Assembly: GCA_963281255.1 (NCBI GenBank)
Contig: OY725501.1
Coordinates: 1,527,674-1,591,673 of the forward strand
From: Aphrocallistes beatrix
Lineage: Eukaryota > Porifera > Hexactinellida > Sceptrulophora > Aphrocallistidae
Length of the DNA stretch: 64,000 bases
Direction: 5' to 3'
Made by a program: the position numbers and the translations under genes. The notes below the pieces were generated by a model, which was given only the letters and a program-made list of their open reading frames with translations, ran no database searches and was not told the DNA's origin. Of this stretch, positions 5,244 through 44,841 are shown piece after piece. Position 1 is the stretch's first letter. Each line of letters starts with the position of its first letter.

Positions 5244-6537
5244 CATTCAAAAAGTCTTGCGGGTCATACCATAAAATAATAAATAAATGTCATAGAATAT
5301 GTTTTAATGTATTATTTATTCGAAATACCTACACAGCGTTTCAAACTTTCCACCCACTTTATGAATGCATTTATGTACTCTTCTTCGGGAATGGATTTGA
5401 AGAAGTGGTATAGGGCCGACCCGAGGGTTTGTTTCGACTCAAATTCCGTGCCTTGAAGGTAGATTTTGTGCTTGGGGAATAGCCAAAAATCACAAGGAGT
5501 TAGGTCTGGTGAGTAGGGTGGGTGGGGAAGTAAATCTAACCCCTCTGATTCCAAGAAATTTTTAGTGAGCTTGGCTGTATGGGAGCTAGCATTATCTATC
5601 AATAATTTTATTCCCCTCATTTTAGCCTTAGGACGGAGCTCTTCCACGTTTTTTATTAGGTTTGGAAGTACTTTCTCTGTAAAAAACGTTGCGTTTACTG
5701 TTTTACCACTTTCAGAAGGTATTTGCAAGACTATTCCACTACTATTGAAGAAGATCGTGTACATGACCTTCGGTTTTCTGAAGTCGGGCCTAGGAATTTG
5801 GGCCGGTCTTTCGTCCCCTCTCACCCATGATCGCATTTTATACTTGCTGTAAGGGGTTGAATAATAGACCAAAGTCTCATCCCCGGTTATAACTTCAGCT
5901 AGGCGTCTAGGATCACAACCGTTTCTAGGCAGTCTTTACACGTGCGAGCTTTTGTTGATCGCCGAGGTTATGTGGGACTCACTTGCCGCAAATGGATCGG
6001 AAACCAAGCTGAGTAGTCAGAGTGGAATGAATGGCCCCCGATGAAATCTCCACACTCTGCTCTAACTGGTCGATTGTTATACACTTATCTTCCCTGACTT
6101 TGCTCACGATTAGAGCAACATTCTCTGGGTGCTGAAGGACACCGGTTTCCCAGATCGAGCTAGATCTGACACGTCTTTATTTCCAGACTGAAATCGTGCA
6201 GCCCATCGCTCTACCGTTTATCTGGAAGGGCAGTCCAATCACAATACCTCCTGCAACTCGTTGTTGATGAGTACCAGCTGGATGTGGAGTTTTGTGCGAA
6301 ACTCAATGCAAGCTCTCCATTTCAGATTAAAATTGTCATCCTTGGAAGCCATAATTTTACCAGTATGTTGAAATGATGTGTGAATAAATTGATCAGAAAT
6401 TTGTAATTTTCATTCAATCAAGCTAAGATTTTCAGTAAATCAAGCTAGATATAAGTTTGTGTTATAGATGAAAACTGATTTGTTTACTATTATAGTCTGC
6501 GAAATATACCATGGCCCGCAAGACTTATTGAACGCCC
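5244..6537 (-). mobile_element. mariner element, defective
   Basis: Inverted ends: CATTCAAAAAGTCTTGCGGG on the left and, as the inverse of the right end, GGGCGTTCAATAAGTCTTGC. TA lies at 5242-5243 and 6538-6539. The related repeat copy at about 53.71 kb is an empty site (CTCATGCATTAGTACAACGG), so the insertion boundaries are supported by comparison within the window. Confidence 0.85.
5312..6352 (-). pseudogene. mariner transposase (DD34D), broken in its N-terminal part
   Basis: Tc1/mariner transposase, which cuts and pastes the element at TA sites. The minus-strand frame from 5872 to 5312 is open: TGDET (first Asp, just upstream), then LLIDNASSHTA (second Asp) and PYSPDLTPCDFWLFP (third Asp). 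Thirty-four residues separate the second and third Asp, the mariner signature. The N-terminal helix-turn-helix half starts at ATG 6350-6352 (MASKDDNFNLKW) but has stops and frameshifts, with recognisable pieces such as VERWAARFQSG. The C-terminus SLKRCVGISNK is typical of the family. The copy cannot make an intact enzyme. Confidence 0.85.
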
Positions 6538-31809: not shown

Positions 31810-32665
31810 CAGGGTGTCTCAAAAGTTTTTTCCGGTTTAATAATTTATCAAAATATTCCTTTTACATCAGTGCTTGCATTTAAACTCGCCCTTTTTTGAT
31901 AATATTTAACTTGAACGGTCATAATGTTTGAATGAAATACAAATCAATTGTATTTGTTAACATCTTGTGATTTTCTTGACCTCACTTCATCATCAATATA
32001 TAGTTTATATTATGGATGTCCAAAATTCCAGAATTGGTAAGAGATTACGTGCAATCGGTATGTTAGAATCTGGTATTAGCCAGAAACAGATTGCTCAGAC
32101 CTTAGGGGTTACAGTTAAGACTGTTTGGAATTGGAAAACGAAGATTCTATCAGGCAAATCTATGGCGGACAAACCTCGGTCTGGGCGTCCAACACGGCTT
32201 TCTCGCGTTCCTAAAATCATTATTAGAAAATCTCTAGGCAAACGTTGGCAGTCTACGCGAAAACTTGCTTGTATCGTTTCGAAAAATTCACAGAGAGTTA
32301 GTAAAGACACGATACATCGTTATTTAAGGAATAGCATCGGAGCAAAGCCATACAAAAGACCTTCGCAACCAAAATTGTCGGAAAAACAGAAGGAACAGCG
32401 GCTACAATTCTGCCTTAGTCATAAATTTTGGGATGAACAGGATTGGAAAAGGGTTCTTTTTAGTGACGAGAGTTCTTTTGAACTTTTCCATCCAACAAAT
32501 CGGCAGAACGATCGGGTTTGGAGTCAGAATGCGCGAAACATTGAGCCTATTCAGACAGTTAAATTCCCGCCTAAAATCATGGTCTGGGGGATGATGAGTG
32601 GCACTGGGATCTCGGAACTCCATTTTCTTCCTCCCAAACAATCTGTAAATGCAGAATACTATATA

Positions 32666-34000
32666 CAGTCTGTCCCATAATTATTGAGAAAATGTTTAAT
32701 TGAATATCCTTAGTATTTGAAACGAAATTTCAATACCTATTCATCTAAATCTTAGATATTCCTCTATTTGATGGATATTTTTCTATAATTAGTATGGTAT
32801 AAACTTGGTTGTTTTTTTTAATTATGCAAAAATATGTGATGCGTCATCATTACTTAGCACTATCTGACTAATGTTAGTTTGTTGTGAATTTCTAAAGAGC
32901 TTAGATACACTAGTTATTGAGATGTCTCAAGTGTCAAAGAGGAATGAAATTCGAACCCTCTGGACCTCAAAGATATACAACCCGAAACAAATTAGCCGAG
33001 CACTCGACGTTTCCTTAGCGACAGTCTACCGTGTAATTCGCCGAGTTTCTGAACAACAGTCGCTAGATCACCATCGTGGTGCAGGAAGACCGGCTATAGT
33101 CTATCAGGCGATTAAGAAAAGTGTGGTTAAGCAAATCAGAGATGATCCAAAGGTCTCCATTCGCGAAATTTCATCGAAGTTACCTTGTTCAGCTAGCAAA
33201 ACAAGCGTCCATCGTTGCCTTAAAAAGTTGGATTATTCAAAGCCCTTTCCGAAGAAAGTTCCCATGTTGTCTGAGACAAATCGTATTAAACGTCTAGATT
33301 GGGCAAGAACTAATATGGACAGACCGTGGAATCAAGCAATTTTCGCGGATGAAGCATCCTTTTGGCTTTTTGGCGGCTCAGTGAGGATGTGGACGAAGAA
33401 TAGTGAATTCAGAGTTGCCCCCACTGTTAAGCATAGTGCAAAGATCAATATTTGGGCCGGATTTTCTTCAATGGGGACATTCCCACTCTGTATTTTCGAA
33501 CACAATATGAACGGTGAATTCTTTGTGAAGATTCTAGAGGTTCATTTACTGGCGCAAGCAAATGTTTTTCATGAAAGAAATTGGTTTTTGGTACAGGATA
33601 ATGATCCCAAACACACTTGTAAGAAGGCAAGGGATTGGATGCAGCAAAATATGCCTCAAAACACCTTTGGTTGGCCAAGTCAGAGTCCTGATATCAACCC
33701 AATAGAGAATATATTCGGATGGATAAAGCATAACCTTAGTAGAGATCGACCAAGAACAAAATCAGACCTTAAAGATCGGATTTCTGTCTTATGGGATTCC
33801 ATAACCCCGGAGTTTTTGGAACCTTACTGGTCTTCAATGCCGAAAAGGTGTCAAAAAGTGATCGACAGCAATGGTAACAAGATAAATTACTGATCATCAG
33901 ACACATATTGTAATATTCTGCTTAAAATTTAATAATGGAATTGAATAATTGATATTCATTTTAGTACTTAGGTGATTCTCAATAATTACGGGACAGACTG
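32666..34000 (+). mobile_element. Tc1-like element B (DD35E), 1335 bp, apparently complete
   Basis: Inverted ends CAGTCTGTCCCATAATTATT and (inverse) CAGTCTGTCCCGTAATTATT, differing at one base in about 26, with TA at 32,664-32,665 and 34,001-34,002. It lies inside the transposase gene of element A and contains one uninterrupted transposase frame. Confidence 0.9.
32922..33893 (+). CDS. Tc1-like transposase, intact, DD35E spacing
   Basis: Cut-and-paste transposase of 323 codons from ATG 32,922 (MSQVSKRNEIRTLW); the frame is open a further 17 codons upstream, but this start fits Tc1 proteins. Order: helix-turn-helix (PKQISRALDVSLATVYRVI), GAGRP linker, second DNA-binding region (SIREISSKLPCSASKTSVHR), then the catalytic core. 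The core has IFADEASFWLF (first Asp), LVQDNDPKHTCKK (second Asp) and WPSQSPDINPIENIF (Glu). Thirty-five residues separate the second Asp from the Glu, one more than classical Tc1. It ends at VIDSNGNKINY with a stop. Length and motifs are complete, and no stops or frameshifts are seen, so this copy may be recently active. Confidence 0.9.
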   Translation: MSQVSKRNEIRTLWTSKIYNPKQISRALDVSLATVYRVIRRVSEQQSLDHHRGAGRPAIVYQAIKKSVVKQIRDDPKVSIREISSKLPCSASKTSVHRCLKKLDYSKPFPKKVPMLSETNRIKRLDWARTNMDRPWNQAIFADEASFWLFGGSVRMWTKNSEFRVAPTVKHSAKINIWAGFSSMGTFPLCIFEHNMNGEFFVKILEVHLLAQANVFHERNWFLVQDNDPKHTCKKARDWMQQNMPQNTFGWPSQSPDINPIENIFGWIKHNLSRDRPRTKSDLKDRISVLWDSITPEFLEPYWSSMPKRCQKVIDSNGNKINY

Positions 34001-37857: not shown

Positions 37858-39186
37858 CAGGGTGTCTCAAAATTATTGCCCTATTGCATTTTTATCCATA
37901 AAATATTAGAATAGAGAGATATATGATCGGTCATTTGGATATATAATTTCCATCTAGTTTAATACAAGATTTTATCCTCTCGGGCATTCCATCTATCAGA
38001 GCTTTTAGATAATTTGGTTTTATGGATGACCAGGCCGATTCGAGCTGTATTTTTAGGTCACAAATACTTTTGGCGGTGTCTATCTTGTTTAGCTCTTCCT
38101 GAAGATATCCCCACAGGTTCTCAATTGGGTTTAAGTCAGGAGAGTTGCCTGGCCATTGTGGTTTATCCCAAAAGTTAGCTAGGTTCCTCTTGCACCAATC
38201 TTGGGTTTTTTTGGACGTGTGAGCAGGGGCGCCGTCCTGCATAAAAACAGCTTTTGACATGTTTTTGAGCATTTTTCTATCCAAAACAGATCCATTTTCA
38301 CGGGTTCTGTGAAGAGTCTCCAAACAGGACTTTGCCAGGATTTCATCTATATAGTAGGCTGTATTTACTGTTTGTTTGGGAGGGATGAAGTGCAATTTAG
38401 AGATCGCTCGAAAGCTCATCATCCCCCAAACCATAAATTTCGGAGGAAATTTGACAGTTTCCTGTGGGATGATATTTGAGCCATCTCTTGCCCAAATCCT
38501 GTCATTTTGACGATTTGTGGGATGAAATAGCTCAAATGAAGACTCATCAGACCAAAGGATGTTTCTCCAGTCAGCGACAGTCCAGTTCTCCTTTGCCAGA
38601 CAGAAATTTAATCTGTTTTCTCTCTGTTTTGAGGAAAGTTTGGGCTGTTTTGGTCGCTTATAGGGTCGAACTTGCAAATCTTTCCTCAAATAGCGATGGA
38701 CAGTTTCGAGACAGGTACACATGTCCTCGTAATTTGTGTAGCGATTAATCGCGTAGATTTGTGTCGCTTTCCCAGAGATTTTGCGATCATGATCTTAGAC
38801 CGCCGGTTCAGCTTTTTTGGCCTTCCAGCCCCTTTCCTATGCTGAAGATCTTTTGAACAATTGTATCTTGCCAACCATCTTCGAACTGTTCTAATATCCT
38901 TCCCAAGTTCCTTTGCTACAGAAATCTGAGTAGAACCAGCGAGTAACATCCCAATAGCGCGATTTCTGACCTGTAACTTTCCATCGTCAACATCCATATC
39001 GGCCAATAAAACAAGACAAGAGAAAAAAAATATTTTCAAGGTACGTAGATAAATCTTCAAGTTATCAAATTTCAAGTTATATTTCAATACTTGAGTTACT
39101 ATAACTGAAGTCTATACTGATTTGAGGTAGATTTATAATCCATACTGTATAGACTTACAATAGGGCAATAATTTTGAGACACCCTG
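37858..39186 (-). mobile_element. Tc1-like element C (DD37E), 1329 bp
   Basis: Inverted ends CAGGGTGTCTCAAAATTATT with TA at 37,856-37,857 and 39,187-39,188. Full length, transposase on the minus strand. Inserted between the two iterated-repeat ends of the hAT-like element. Confidence 0.9.
37931..38997 (-). pseudogene. Tc1-like transposase, DD37E, one frameshift from complete
   Basis: Starts MDVDDGKLQVRNRAIGML at 38,997, with helix-turn-helix (QISVAKELGKDIRTVRRW) and the KGAGRPKKL linker. A single frame change near 38,705, between VPVS and ETVHRYL, splits the DNA-binding and catalytic halves. The catalytic part is open: LWSDESSFELF (first Asp), VFMQDGAPAHTSKK (second Asp), SPDLNPIENLW (Glu), with 37 residues between the last two. 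It ends IKSCIKLDGNYISK. Closely related to the transposase of element A. Probably young. Confidence 0.9.
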
Positions 39187-39492
39187 TATATATTGAATAT
39201 ACATATAAACATTTATACAAAAATATATCTTGTGGTTGACCAAATATTCGGTTGACCAAATTATTTGGTTGACCAAATTATTCGGTTGACTAAATTATTC
39301 GGTTGATCGAATTATTTGGTTCTCAACCGAATACCAAATAATGATATTTGGTTACAAACCAAATATCAACTATTTGCAAATATTATTTGGTTAAACCGAA
39401 TAATCAATTATTCGGTTGCAACCCTGAAAAAAACATGAATTTCAAAAACAATTCGCACAACTGGAGAAAGTATATCTATATAACTGTAGGAC

Positions 39493-39660
39493 TGTTTCAT
39501 CGTAAGTTGATCCGCATCGTAATTTGATCCGCACCATGGATCTACTACATCTATTGCAACTAGACCCGCATCGAAACTTGATCCGCTATTCTATCCATCG
39601 TAAGTTGATCCGCATCATGGATCTACTACACCTATTGTAATTTGATCCGCAAATACTATC
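39493..39660 (+). repeat. Left terminal inverted repeat with iterated TTGATCCGC motifs
   Basis: The first 81 bp match the right end exactly. Within 39,493-39,650 the word TTGATCCGC recurs five times in slightly different contexts (CGTAAGTTGATCCGC, CGTAATTTGATCCGC, CGAAACTTGATCCGC). Repeated sites of this kind are candidate transposase-binding sites. Confidence 0.8.
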
Positions 39661-39932
39661 AACTATATTATAGTGACTTGATTAGCAATTCTATTTTCAA
39701 TATTTTGATTTGCTAATCTTTTACTATTTTGATTCATATTCGCTTGCTACTATTGTCCACTTGATTTGGAGTAAGTTGCCTTTATTCACTAGTTTGATAA
39801 AAGCTAATTTATTCACCCATCTTTGTTTCATAACTTAATAGTAAATACCTTACTGTTCGTTGCCGGATTGCTAAATATTATAAGTATCACTTTTTACCTA
39901 TAATATTCACGTATTTTATTTTCGTCATAAAG

Positions 39933-42836
39933 ATGAATGCTACTGGGCATGATAATCTGTTTCAGTTCATATCGGCTGGAACCTATCCAGCCGATATTCA
40001 ACATGGACCCAGATATCTCCGTGCGAATTTCCGGCGGATGACTTCACACTTTCGTGTTGAAAGAAAGACACTCTACAAGGTTAGAATGTACGGTATTATT
40101 TCATACTTTACATCTTGTCCTGTATTTTTTGCATTATATTAGAGCGTGATACAGGCCAAAATTATTTAAATTTGTTGTATAATGTTGGATTAATGCATTC
40201 CAGGATCCATCGTTAATCAGTAGCCATTCGAGACCTTTTGATGCAAAATAAATTGTGTCATATTCAAGGATTTGTATTTGTTCAGTTATATATTGTTGCT
40301 TGTAATATATTTCTAGGTGATTCGCAACAAAAAAGAGACGTTAGAGTTATTTGAATACCCTCTTATTTCAGAAGTCCCCAAAATCCTGGAAGACTATCAT
40401 GTTGATCATGATAAGATCAATGCCATGTCTAATTCTATCAGGCAAAGATACTTCTGGGATAAAATGTATCAGCAAATAGAACAATATGTAAGTTTCCATT
40501 TTTTGTGGTCTTAAGAATTTATCATCAAACTTAAATACTTAGTAATATTCACCTTTCTAATAATTATCACCCATTAACAATCTGACTATTTGTAGTATGT
40601 TATTTTGCTAGATTTGTCTTTCTTTTGCGAACTAAAAGTTAAGTGAAATCCTGTATTGTGACTAACTACTGAACTTGGCGCTTCGTTACTTTTTGCTTAT
40701 AGGTCCACTACTATTTTTTATCGCTCTTATCTAATTTTGCCACCACTGAAAAATTTGAAGCTCATAACTATCTCATCACTGTCGTATTGTTAATATTACA
40801 TGTTTGAGACAAACAGTAGCAAAAAGACCTTGTCAAATTTGGCAAAGTTGTTTACTAGTTAGATTGTCTAATTGTTTGAAATTCATGACGAATATCACGT
40901 CAATTTAAGGAAGTAACAGTTTAAATTTCCTGAATAACTATGACTAATCTAATATACATTTATTATTTTATAAATGATTAGATATTAATTGTTATACTCT
41001 GACTAGATTAAGTTTTGCGACTATTGCCAAAAATCTGGAAATAAAATTAAACAACCGCAGAGAGAACTTCAGCCCATTACTCCTCCCGAGAGACCATGGC
41101 AGCATATCGGAATGGATTTGTTCGTTGACATGCCCCCAAATGAGTTTGGGTACAGACATGTACTCGTAGTCGTTTGCTACCTGAGCAAATATGTTGTTGC
41201 AAGACCTCTTAAAACAAAAACTACTTCCGAAGTTGTTGCTAAACTATTGGATATTTATCTGACATTTGGTGTCCCGGAAATATGCCAACATGATCAAGGG
41301 AAAGAATTTACAAGCAAGGTGAGGAATACACATAGATTTGAAATTTGAGAACTATCATTTTATAATACTACTTGTAGTATTGCTTAAACTGCTCATTGTC
41401 ATTCATTACATTTTATATCTTCCACAAATTCTTTATTGATTTCTCAGCTAAATTCCAGCATTCATTGCATCATAAAATCACTCATTTTGTTATGATTACT
41501 TACCCCAAGTTATTTTATCAATTGTTTCTCAACACCTGAATTCATTCATCAACTATGCAACAATGACGATAAGTATGTAACCGTAATTCTCTAAAGCATG
41601 ACGTGATTGATGAATTTATTTTACTTTCAATAATATTCAAATTTAACTGAACTAATTACTTGTAGCAAAAAATAGTGGGGCAATAGTGAGATTTCTCAAA
41701 TAAGTGATCTGTTAAATTTGACTGATTGATTGATTATTAATTAACAGGAGTTCAACGATATGCATCAACAGTTGGGGGTTGATAACCGAAGGACAAGTGC
41801 ATACTATCCTCAGAGCAACGGTCTTGTGGAGGCGCACAACAAAATTTTGAAAAGGTTCGAAATACTATTTATAGGCCAATCCTTGATCAAAATTGTAGTA
41901 TTTAATTAACATTTCGTAGGAAAATCGAGAACCTGCGCCAGACTTCAGATGGTGCGTGGCCAACCAAATTACCATTTGCTGTTATGGCTTCAAACAGCAA
42001 GATCAAAAGAGCCACAAAATTTTCAGCTTTTGAGCTTATGTTTGGGCGCAAGTTTGATGCTATACCCTTACTAAACCTAAGTAAATCCCACACAACTTAT
42101 CCTAATGAGCAGTCATCTGAAGATGAATCAATTCACATTGATTCACTAGTCGATCCTTACGCCATTCAAGTTGAATCCATTGGTGATATGGGTAATGAAA
42201 TGAAATTGATTCGCCAGCAAAATGAGTCAGAGGCGCGTTTAAATATTAAAATTGAACAGAAGAGACAGAAGCGTATTTATGATAAAAAAGTGAAAACTAA
42301 CAGGTGTACTGTAATATATTTTTATAACTTTTGGTTCTTATATTTTATCGGCCAAATTAATTATCAACGTTATTTTAGTTCGGATTTTCAGGAGGGGGAG
42401 CTATTTTTAGTACGGAACATTGCCAAAGACAAGAAGCTCCCAAACACTAAGAGGCAGTCCAATTATTTTGGCCCTTTTCCTGTCAATTCAGTAAAGAAAA
42501 GTCATATTATTACCCGTTAAGTCACAGATAGGCAACAGACTAAAGTTAGGTATCATCCTATTCACCTATCTAAAAAGTATATTCCACGCGAGAAACAGGT
42601 AGACAACCTACTGAATTTAAAAACTTAAAGGCGTCTAAATATAATTGTAGTGATTATATATGTACTTGTAGACACTTCTTCACTATAACATAATTCGAGA
42701 AACCAAACCACCAGTAGATGACGAGATCTCTATAGTACAATCCCAAACGGTTAAATCATGTAAAAGAGGAAGTTCAGATGTGGAATTAATCAGTCAATGT
42801 AAGAAATCTAAGGTGAAAGAGAAATTGTACAAGTAG
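39933..42836 (+). CDS. Ginger-like transposase (retroviral-type integrase), seven exons
   Basis: Predicted exons: 39,933-40,079, 40,317-40,487, 41,007-41,318, 41,748-41,854, 41,920-42,310, 42,392-42,598, 42,672-42,836, all with GT-AG introns; about 499 codons. Domains: HHCC zinc finger (YHVDH at residues ~77-80, FCDYC at ~110-113), integrase core with Asp in IGMDLF (~143), Asp in QHDQGKEF (~202) and Glu in NGLVEAHNK (~238). Thirty-five residues separate the last two. A GPY/F-like segment (NYFGPFPV) follows, with a basic C-terminal tail (CKKSKVKEK). This enzyme would cut and join the element's ends in the nucleus. One in-frame TAA at 42,518-42,520 lies in the GPY/F region; coding clearly continues beyond it (VTDRQQTKVRYHPIHLSKKY). 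Start chosen at the first Met after which homology-like sequence is continuous. Exon 5's donor (ACT|GTAATA) is the least certain. Confidence 0.8.
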
Positions 42837-42885
42837 ATTATTCATTTTATTTTAATTGTATGTTGATATAAATATTCAATTATAG

Positions 42886-44151
42886 ATGGTGACTTCATCT
42901 GATCGCTATATTTATGGTCTTTCGCGAGAGATAATCGTGGACGAATTAAATTTCCTGAAAGTGAGTTTAGTGTACGGATGTGAAATATCCTTGATAATAT
43001 TCTATAAATAATGAAAGCGTATTTTTTATAAAGGAAGATGTAATCAATAAATTAAAACAACAGCAGTACATATCTCCCTTACACGAATTACTTCATAATA
43101 CCCCGACTAGACAGATGTGTCCAACTATTACCATCTTATTCTCTATTCTCAGTAACGTTACACCTTTCAAAATGGTTTGTTTTATGTTTGCACATTTTGA
43201 GTATACATTGTTACATTGCATTTATTTTAGAGAGAAGAGATTATGGACATTCTTCTCCAATGGGCAGAACAGGCGTTTGAGAAGAAATACGAAAATGCCA
43301 CTTTACAGAGTCGATATTGTATAGAGTATGCACACCGAGTTCTATACCCAGTTGTGAGTTGGACAAATTAACTATTCAAATAGCAAATCATCAACTATAA
43401 TCTTCGATTGTTTACGAGTTAATTATTAACATACTAGATATGTGACCGCCTGGAAACAGAAATGATAGACCGGTTATATATTTCTGAGGCTGAAAACAGA
43501 CCATTCAAGCTTCCAACACCTTTCACAAATGATCCCTTATACATTCCTGTCACCGAAATTTGGCAGAAGCAAAAGTCTCAAGAAATGGGTATTAAATTAT
43601 ATGAGAACTTCGAGCAACAACCAGCATTAACAGGGTCTCTTCTTTCTGAATTGATTCCCTGGCAAACAGAAAATATAGAGAGAGATGGAAACTGCTTTTT
43701 CAGATTCATTTCTAAGATGATAACAGGGACAGAAGACCACCATGTTAAACTGAGAGCAGAGATATGTCGATATATGGTGACGACAGGGAGAGCATTAATA
43801 AAAAGGTATCTAAGAACATTCACTAATGATACTACACCGGTGGAATATCTAAAAAAGTCGGGAATGACTGAAAATGCAATATTGGCTACAGATGTGGAAC
43901 TGTTGGCTGTTTCTGGTATGCTCAATTCTGATGTCTATATCGCCACCGAACAATTCGACAATATTACGAGGAGAAATACCTGGAATCGATATTCCTGTTG
44001 TAATGATTCCTCAAGAAATCCGCATTCAGTGTCTCTCTACATTTCCAACATAAATCACAACCACTACGAGCCTGTCATTCGCTTAATAAATTCGGGGTAC
44101 GAATCATACAAGCTGAAAGAGTCTACAAATGGCTCAGTAGAGACTTACTGA
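42886..44151 (+). CDS. OTU-domain cysteine protease (deubiquitinase-like) of the Ginger-like element, four exons
   Basis: Predicted exons 42,886-42,960, 43,034-43,174, 43,231-43,353 and 43,438-44,151. All junctions are phase 0 with good GT-AG sites; 350 codons to TGA-type end after NGSVETY. The N-terminal ~190 residues are unrecognised. The last exon holds a complete OTU fold: ENIERDGNCFFRFIS with catalytic Asp ~196 and Cys ~199, ILATDVELLAVSGMLNSDVY (the conserved TD-x-E helix), and INHNHYEPVIRL with the catalytic His ~322. Known role of the family: ubiquitin cleavage. Inference: it may protect the transposase or dampen host ubiquitin-dependent control. ATG 42,886 is directly preceded by TATAG, a possible splice acceptor, and the transposase stop is only 49 bp upstream, so the two products could share a transcript through alternative splicing. 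Confidence 0.8.
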
Positions 44152-44496
44152 AACTGATGTGAGTGTCATTGGAACTGTTTAGTTGTCACTCGAAAATACT
44201 ACCTGTTTTTTAACAGGGGCTCAGACCAGTTCTGGGTCTTACCCTGGCCCGGGTAACTGATGATGACCAATGGAAGGTCGAAACCTAGAACATGAATTTC
44301 AGCACAAAACAACTCTAGATACATCATAGTGCATTATTTGTTAAATACTATATCACTTTTCTGTTAGATATTTTTCTATCACATATTGTTAATTATCTAT
44401 ATTATATCTAATGTTAATTTATCAATTATAAATCGCTGAACGAGGCTCAAACCAACCCCCCCCCATTATTAGCTATTTAAGTTATTCTATTATAGT

Positions 44497-44771
44497 TGAC
44501 AAGAATAGCAAATCAAGTTACAATAATGAAGTTGACATTAATTAATAGCGAATCAAGTTACAATAATAAAGTTGACATTAATTAATAGCGAATCAAGTTT
44601 AAATAATGTAGTTGATAGTAATAGCGGATCAACGTACGATGCAGGTCTAGTTGCAATAGATGTAGTAGATCCATGGTGCGGATCAAATTACGATGCGGGT
44701 CTAGTTGCAATAGATGTAGTAGATCCATGGTGCGGATCAAATTACGATGCGGATCAACTTACGATGAAACA
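44497..44771 (+). repeat. Right subterminal tandem repeats and inverted repeat of the Ginger-like element
   Basis: 44,497-44,626 holds three ~40-bp units with GTTGACATTAATTAATAGCG and AATCAAGTTACAATAAT. 44,627-44,734 holds two 54-bp units (GATCAAATTACGATGCGGGT ... GATCCATGGTGCG) plus a partial third running into the terminus. The open frames called across this segment (44,572-44,918) are products of the repeats, not genes. Confidence 0.85.
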
Positions 44772-44841
44772 GGACTAAGAAATAGAATAGTTCAGGAAAT
44801 TTTGAAAAATTTGATCACAATGAAAATTTGGAATTATTTAA

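Follow-up and report, generated by a model that had tools for sequence, protein, structure and literature searches.

A probable Ginger1-type DNA transposon with an OTU-tailed transposase in the glass sponge Aphrocallistes beatrix

Why should a transposon integrase be found next to an OTU cysteine protease, and do the two belong to one gene? The question is raised by a segment of the genome of the glass sponge Aphrocallistes beatrix, contained in a 64,000-nucleotide stretch (contig OY725501.1, positions 1,527,674 to 1,591,673 of the forward strand) that we call the window. At positions 39493–44771 of the window, both coding regions lie inside a single pair of inverted repeats, which supports the original prediction of a Ginger-type cut-and-paste element. 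Our reading, to which we assign a probability of about 0.86, is that this segment is one slightly decayed DNA transposon of the Ginger1 type, that integrase, linker and OTU domain form one spliced protein, and that the OTU domain most likely deubiquitinates in cis.

The limits of the element (5279 bp) were set by a repeat search and by direct reading of the window. Its ends are organized as follows.

39489–39492 (no strand): left GGAC of the 4-bp target-site duplication, within AGGACT; the same rule holds in sister copies
39493–39573 (+): left terminal inverted repeat; its 81 bp match the right arm exactly, with weaker likeness further inward
44691–44771 (–): right terminal inverted repeat, 81 bp
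44772–44775 (no strand): right GGAC of the 4-bp target-site duplication

Both the identical inverted repeats and the GGAC direct repeats had been predicted, and both were confirmed, the identity of the arms covering exactly 81 bases counted from the tips. At the right end, units of 40 bp and of 54 bp (the latter at 44624–44752) are repeated in tandem, and GATCCGC-type motifs are repeated within the ends of the element. The terminus reads TGTTT in the window's own family and TGTTG in sister families of the same genome.

With the inferred junctions, the coding region of the window copy has 11 exons separated by ten GT-AG introns; of its 844 codons one is an in-frame stop.

39933–40079 (+): transposase exon 1, with a YP...LYK stretch that may be a YPYY motif
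40317–40487 (+): exon 2, both His of the H2C2 zinc finger (PF17921)
41007–41318 (+): exon 3, both Cys of the finger and the first two catalytic Asp (PF00665)
41748–41854 (+): exon 4, catalytic Glu
41920–42303 (+): exon 5, C-terminal region of the integrase
42379–42598 (+): exon 6, GPF (GPY/F) motif; in-frame stop at 42518–42520 in the window copy
42672–42812 (+): exon 7, lysine-rich linker with ...CKKSK at its end, perhaps a nuclear localization signal; junctions in phase 0, counterpart in subfamily 2
42886–42960 (+): exon 8, linker, earlier taken as the start of a separate gene; no initial Met in four of five families
43034–43174 (+): exon 9, linker
43231–43353 (+): exon 10, linker
43438–44151 (+): exon 11, OTU lead-in and OTU cysteine protease domain, including the stop codon

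The integrase part was recognized by two Pfam profiles, Integrase_H2C2 (PF17921; 38.7 bits against a cut-off of 25.5) and rve (PF00665; 42.2 bits against 32.6). These scores, together with the positions of the zinc-finger residues (H 40398, H 40407, C 41016 and C 41025) and of the D,D,E residues (D 41115, D 41292 and E 41829, the last two separated by 35 residues), confirm the predicted D,D-35-E integrase with an HHCC finger. The catalytic identity of the D,D,E triad, as of the Asp, Cys and His residues of OTU proteases, is general knowledge of these families. By eye, the GPY/F motif that follows the core reads YFGPF in the window family and YTGPF in four of the five copies of a second subfamily, the fifth (L015) having D for G. 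Exon 1 reads YP...F...LYK, possibly a YPYY motif.

A search of the PDB returned the PFV and Ty3 integrases as the nearest solved relatives. Among the 120 database matches listed of 238, the named eukaryotic relatives are four proteins (P0049, P0058, P0095 and P0099) of Oopsacas minuta, itself a glass sponge; one partial protein in the same set is filed under Salmonella and is probably a contamination. A fungal host, an early idea, was abandoned: eRF3 scored 661–671 bits with the best four chains, named eRF3a/ERF3A and mammalian, against 534 and 490 bits with the next two, those of yeast and fission yeast, and mitochondrial COX1 contains in-frame TGA as well as AGA at several positions that are Ser or Gly in animals.

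The OTU domain (PF02338) scored 29.3 bits against a cut-off of 23.3. Its Asp, Cys and His residues, predicted to be intact, were indeed located at D 43684, C 43693 and H 44062. The profile also matched all 28 relatives chosen for comparison, and a structure comparison supported the OTU fold. Conserved residues and fold together suggest that the domain is an active protease.

In the genome as a whole (100.5 Mb in 28 contigs were searched), at least 149 OTU matches exceeded the Pfam cut-off among 150 scored of 263 candidates. Several of these domains stand within frames of 1006–1970 residues; other transposon classes may carry OTU domains too. The Ulp1 profile gave nine matches, none of which, as judged by eye, lies within 9 kb of an integrase match and could mark a Ulp1-type Ginger1.

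An obvious concern was whether the OTU exons lie inside the repeats in other copies as well. They do so in two further full copies, L009 and L010 (on contigs C2 and C19, 97.4% and 97.9% identical to the window copy), both of which share the window copy's ends and are flanked by a 4-bp duplication of their own, GATC. In subfamily 2 (L011, L012, L013, L015 and L018; exon DNA identity about 68–78%) the OTU exons likewise lie inside the repeats, and integrase and OTU exons follow each other in the same order. Of 17 further Ginger-type loci (L031–L046 and L050), ten have Ginger-type ends on inverted repeats in the stretch fetched.

More generally, with 150 OTU matches listed, one was found within 9 kb of 84 of the 150 integrase-exon matches. 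Because the OTU match was downstream and on the same strand in 80 of these 84 pairs, the OTU domain travels with the integrase, contrary to what would have refuted the original prediction; in one more pair it was on the same strand but overlapped the integrase match.

When the window copy was compared with L012, L013 and L018, the OTU part gave dN values of 0.24–0.26 and dS values of 1.63–1.64 (dN/dS about 0.15), while the integrase part gave a dN of 0.17–0.20 with dS saturated. In more distant comparisons synonymous change was mostly saturated and dN ranged from 0.17 to 0.68. This pattern of substitution indicates that the integrase and OTU parts are both kept by selection.

Is there one gene, or are there two? 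The original prediction placed the OTU domain in a separate four-exon gene opening at ATG 42886, and the window copy taken by itself lends some weight to that view: a reading frame runs to a stop at 42834–42836, and the ATG follows. An integrase transposase ending near 42836 and an independent OTU gene would account for this. Moreover, the intron-7 donor of the window differs from those of L009 and L010 and, being GTGAAA, is weaker than the GTAAGA of L009, so that the window copy might make two products.

However, ATG 42886 is not conserved outside the window's family, and the exon that it opens is in phase with the upstream exon. In subfamily 2 the GPF exon is followed by one that is lysine-rich at its end (...SKRPK), and then by a GT-AG intron, the exon VTNVNDEQYLFGISRESIVEELNLLK, another GT-AG intron and the next OTU-side exon, in phase 0 throughout (in L012 a local gap of two bases interrupts the exon preceding the VTNVNDEQYLFGISRESIVEELNLLK exon). 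This VTNVNDEQYLFGISRESIVEELNLLK exon is the homologue of the window's exon 8. An initial Met in exon 8 was seen only in the window's own family among the five families in which the exon was recognized; it is lacking in subfamily 2 (five copies), the L035 family, L037/L038 and L050. Of these four families, L050 alone has a Met elsewhere in the exon. Neighboring exons join in phase 0 wherever they could be traced, with phase-0 GT-AG junctions followed in the window family, subfamily 2 and L037 (exon 6 of L037 was read piecewise owing to a frame disturbance). Exon 9 was found by pattern in L038, L041 and L042, with tblastn matches also in L037 and L050.

Since the junctions are in phase 0 and exon 8 lacks an initial Met outside the window's family, the OTU domain very probably does not form a gene of its own, and we consider two genes improbable. 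The conserved exon phase, rather than RNA, leads us to infer a single 11-exon, 844-codon gene for integrase, lysine-rich linker and OTU domain. It follows from this exon structure that the N-terminal half of the supposed OTU protein, some 190 residues said to match nothing, is best read as linker exons 8–10 plus the lead-in of exon 11.

Target preference provided a further line of evidence. The bases AGNNC precede the terminus TGTTTCATCGTAA in 40 of its 66 occurrences (the reversed 13-mer, counted as a control, occurred 5 times, and some of the 66 may therefore be fortuitous) and the related terminus TGTTGCRTGRNATTCTGAG in 145 of 174, against about 0.6 and 1.7, respectively, expected from base composition. 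We then compared adjacent ends that face each other at most 13 kb apart, pre-chosen for AGNNC, which used all 40 of the former ends and 100 of the 145 latter. The four bases were identical in 7 of 7 TGTTTCATCGTAA pairs and 21 of 27 TGTTGCRTGRNATTCTGAG pairs, that is, in 28 of 34 facing pairs overall. Because of the AGNNC counts and the matching bases in facing pairs, the target is best described, on sequence grounds, as the palindrome AGNNCT, with GNNC duplicated.

Two short intervals between facing ends, C19:2235058-2235888 (0.83 kb) and C2:7415330-7416972 (1.64 kb), are probable non-autonomous derivatives; they bear the same termini, and their duplications, GGCC and GCAC, match.

Several observations weigh against the reading proposed here. 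The splice junctions are predicted from conserved phase, and exon 8 was recognized in five of 11 families (our own grouping: the window family, subfamily 2 and nine families searched as 11 loci), the linker being untraced in the other six; the patterns used did not find it in L032, L040, L041, L042, L043, L044, L045 or L046. The pattern that picked out exon 8 in L035 and L050 required phase 0, the preceding exon being untraced, and in L050 exon 8 has a Met in mid-exon. With 150 OTU matches listed, 66 of the 150 integrase matches had none within 9 kb, and in three of the 84 pairs the OTU match was on the opposite strand. Seven of the 17 further loci showed no Ginger-type inverted repeat within the stretch fetched. 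Asp83 is replaced in two of the 28 aligned OTU domains (L043 and P0005). The four bases differ in six facing pairs, although two of these, as judged by eye, are nested, with agreement at the outer end.

The state of the copies must also be considered. The in-frame stop at 42518–42520 in exon 6 of the window copy is absent from L009 and L010, but these two are damaged elsewhere: a one-base gap interrupts exon 2 of L009 and a stop its OTU exon, and OTU exons of L010 contain gaps. None of the three full copies of the window family is intact. Among close copies dN is close to dS, some values being inflated by frameshifted stretches; within families this is as expected of decay after insertion.

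The combination of integrase and OTU is unsurprising because it was described in 2010, and the suspicion attached to the original prediction, that it might not be wholly new, was correct. According to that description (Bao, Kapitonov and Jurka; PMC2836005), Ginger1 transposases with a C-terminal OTU domain occur in hydra (Ginger1-1, -2, -3 and -11_HM), sea hare (Ginger1-1_AC) and aphid (Ginger1-1 and -2_AP). By the same account, Ginger1 elements have a Gypsy-like integrase with H2C2, DDE and GPY/F motifs; one spliced transposase with a C-terminal OTU or Ulp1 domain (here OTU, the fusion being predicted from exon phase); inverted repeats of 40–270 bp (here 81 bp); a 4-bp duplication (here seen in the window copy, L009 and L010); and a length of 2.6–7 kb (here 5279 bp). 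Correcting two genes to one thus brings the element closer to published Ginger1.

It departs from that description in other respects. The duplication reported in 2010, from hydra copies, is CCGG or CCGT/ACGG, whereas here it is GNNC within AGNNCT; CCGG/CCGT may mark the whole group or only those hydra families. Published introns number 0–4, against ten predicted here, and published transposases have 500–800 residues, against 844. The published 5' end, TGTNR, is not fitted by the TGTTT of the window family but is fitted by the TGTTG of the sister families.

Ginger2/TDD elements (PMC2836005) likewise combine an integrase-type transposase with inverted repeats and a 4–5 bp duplication, but they lack GPY/F and insert at AT-rich RTATAY; the window element has GPF, and its target is AGNNCT. 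Helitrons and Helentrons with OTU or VTD domains (PMC9741609, PMC6431247) also have a deubiquitinase-type domain added to a transposon protein; however, they employ a rolling-circle Rep/helicase machinery, where the window element uses an integrase. Repbase is reported to hold 23 autonomous Ginger1 entries (PMC10045372), and the Oopsacas minuta genome paper gives 15.44% DNA transposons and does not contain the word Ginger. Neither Ginger1 in sponges nor an AGNNCT target was reported in the literature searched, which left Repbase and Dfam outside its scope. As far as we could check, then, what is new with respect to published Ginger1 is the AGNNCT target, the ten introns, the large radiation in one 100-Mb genome and the glass-sponge host.

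Host genes do get captured by transposons, and OTU matches are very numerous in this genome (at least 149 over the cut-off), so we considered whether a domesticated or passenger OTU gene had been captured by chance by one Ginger copy. Conservation across families rules this out, unless the OTU domain joined several times: order and strand are the same in 80 of 84 neighborhoods, purifying selection is seen between families, and hydra, sea hare and aphid elements are described with the same architecture (PMC2836005). We regard such a capture as extremely improbable. A remnant of a Gypsy-type LTR retrotransposon, suggested by the kinship with PFV and Ty3 integrases and by ends that start with TG, can be rejected with equal assurance, as the terminal repeats are inverted and not direct, no reverse transcriptase or RNase H was found in the seven reading frames scanned, and the inverted-repeat layout is common to several diverged families.

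How might a Ginger1-type element with an OTU tail operate? By analogy with its integrase family, the transposase would bind the repeated GATCCGC-type motifs in the ends and excise the element by cut-and-paste DDE chemistry. The strands would then be joined to palindromic AGNNCT sites at points staggered by 4 bp, which would leave GNNC duplicated. Nuclear import may depend on the lysine-rich linker. The OTU tail would act in cis, stripping ubiquitin from the transposase or from its partners and so keeping the complex from degradation or extraction until repair is complete.

Shielding the transposase complex in this way, against ubiquitin-dependent degradation or extraction, is the role that we favor, by a modest preference. 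Action on repair factors, as suggested in 2010, comes second and is possible though rather doubtful; chromatin or other targets rank last. The first two ideas have precedents, a DNA-repair role having been proposed for Ginger1 (PMC2836005) and protection from ubiquitin for the deubiquitinase domains of Helitrons (PMC9741609). The latter report describes active enzymes in another deubiquitinase family, one with Helitron-borne members, and notes that the activity of transposon OTU domains was still to be tested.

A few observations were made in passing. The window is rich in mobile elements: Tc1/mariner-type transposase-like frames, named from sequence, occur at 5312–5935 (–), 31961–32680 (+), 32868–33893 (+) and 37931–38794 (–). 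Just beyond the left end of the Ginger1-type element, at 39234–39321, there is a 17-bp tandem array of about five copies of GGTTGACCAAATTATTC, with inverted repeats nearby. On the mitochondrial contig C28 (L054), COX1 contains 14 in-frame TGA and 16 AGA codons. TGA is read as a sense codon; several of the AGA codons stand at positions that are Ser or Gly in animals, consistent with reassignment of AGA in the mitochondrial code.

A different repeated element with an OTU domain was also encountered, at C8:2428460-2434960, C10:992073-998648 and C17:2608475-2615050 (L047, L048 and L049). It has near-identical inverted repeats of at least 514–552 bp and a frame of 1102 amino acids, broken in L049, in which about 900 residues without a Pfam match precede an OTU domain 26–27% identical to that of the window. 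Seven database relatives of this protein were found, two of them with OTU (P0132 and P0136).

The Ginger1-type radiation, with its AGNNCT target, and L047–L049, in which no integrase can be recognized, both end in related OTU domains. On this basis, with selection analyzed for the Ginger part only, one may tentatively ask whether OTU is a standard, exchangeable module of unrelated transposons in the sponge lineage, acting in cis and needed for transposition. We hold this to be a speculative proposal, with the odds against it. If it were true, comparing the Ginger1-type and L047–L049 elements would reveal the host ubiquitin step that limits transposition.

The glass-sponge host extends OTU-tailed Ginger1 to sponges, with no earlier report in the literature searched. 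Many families in one small animal genome, with recent copies and a clear palindromic target, make up a natural comparative set. This set, together with the purifying selection that acts on integrase and OTU parts alike, makes it possible to test directly why transposons of the integrase type have ubiquitin proteases.

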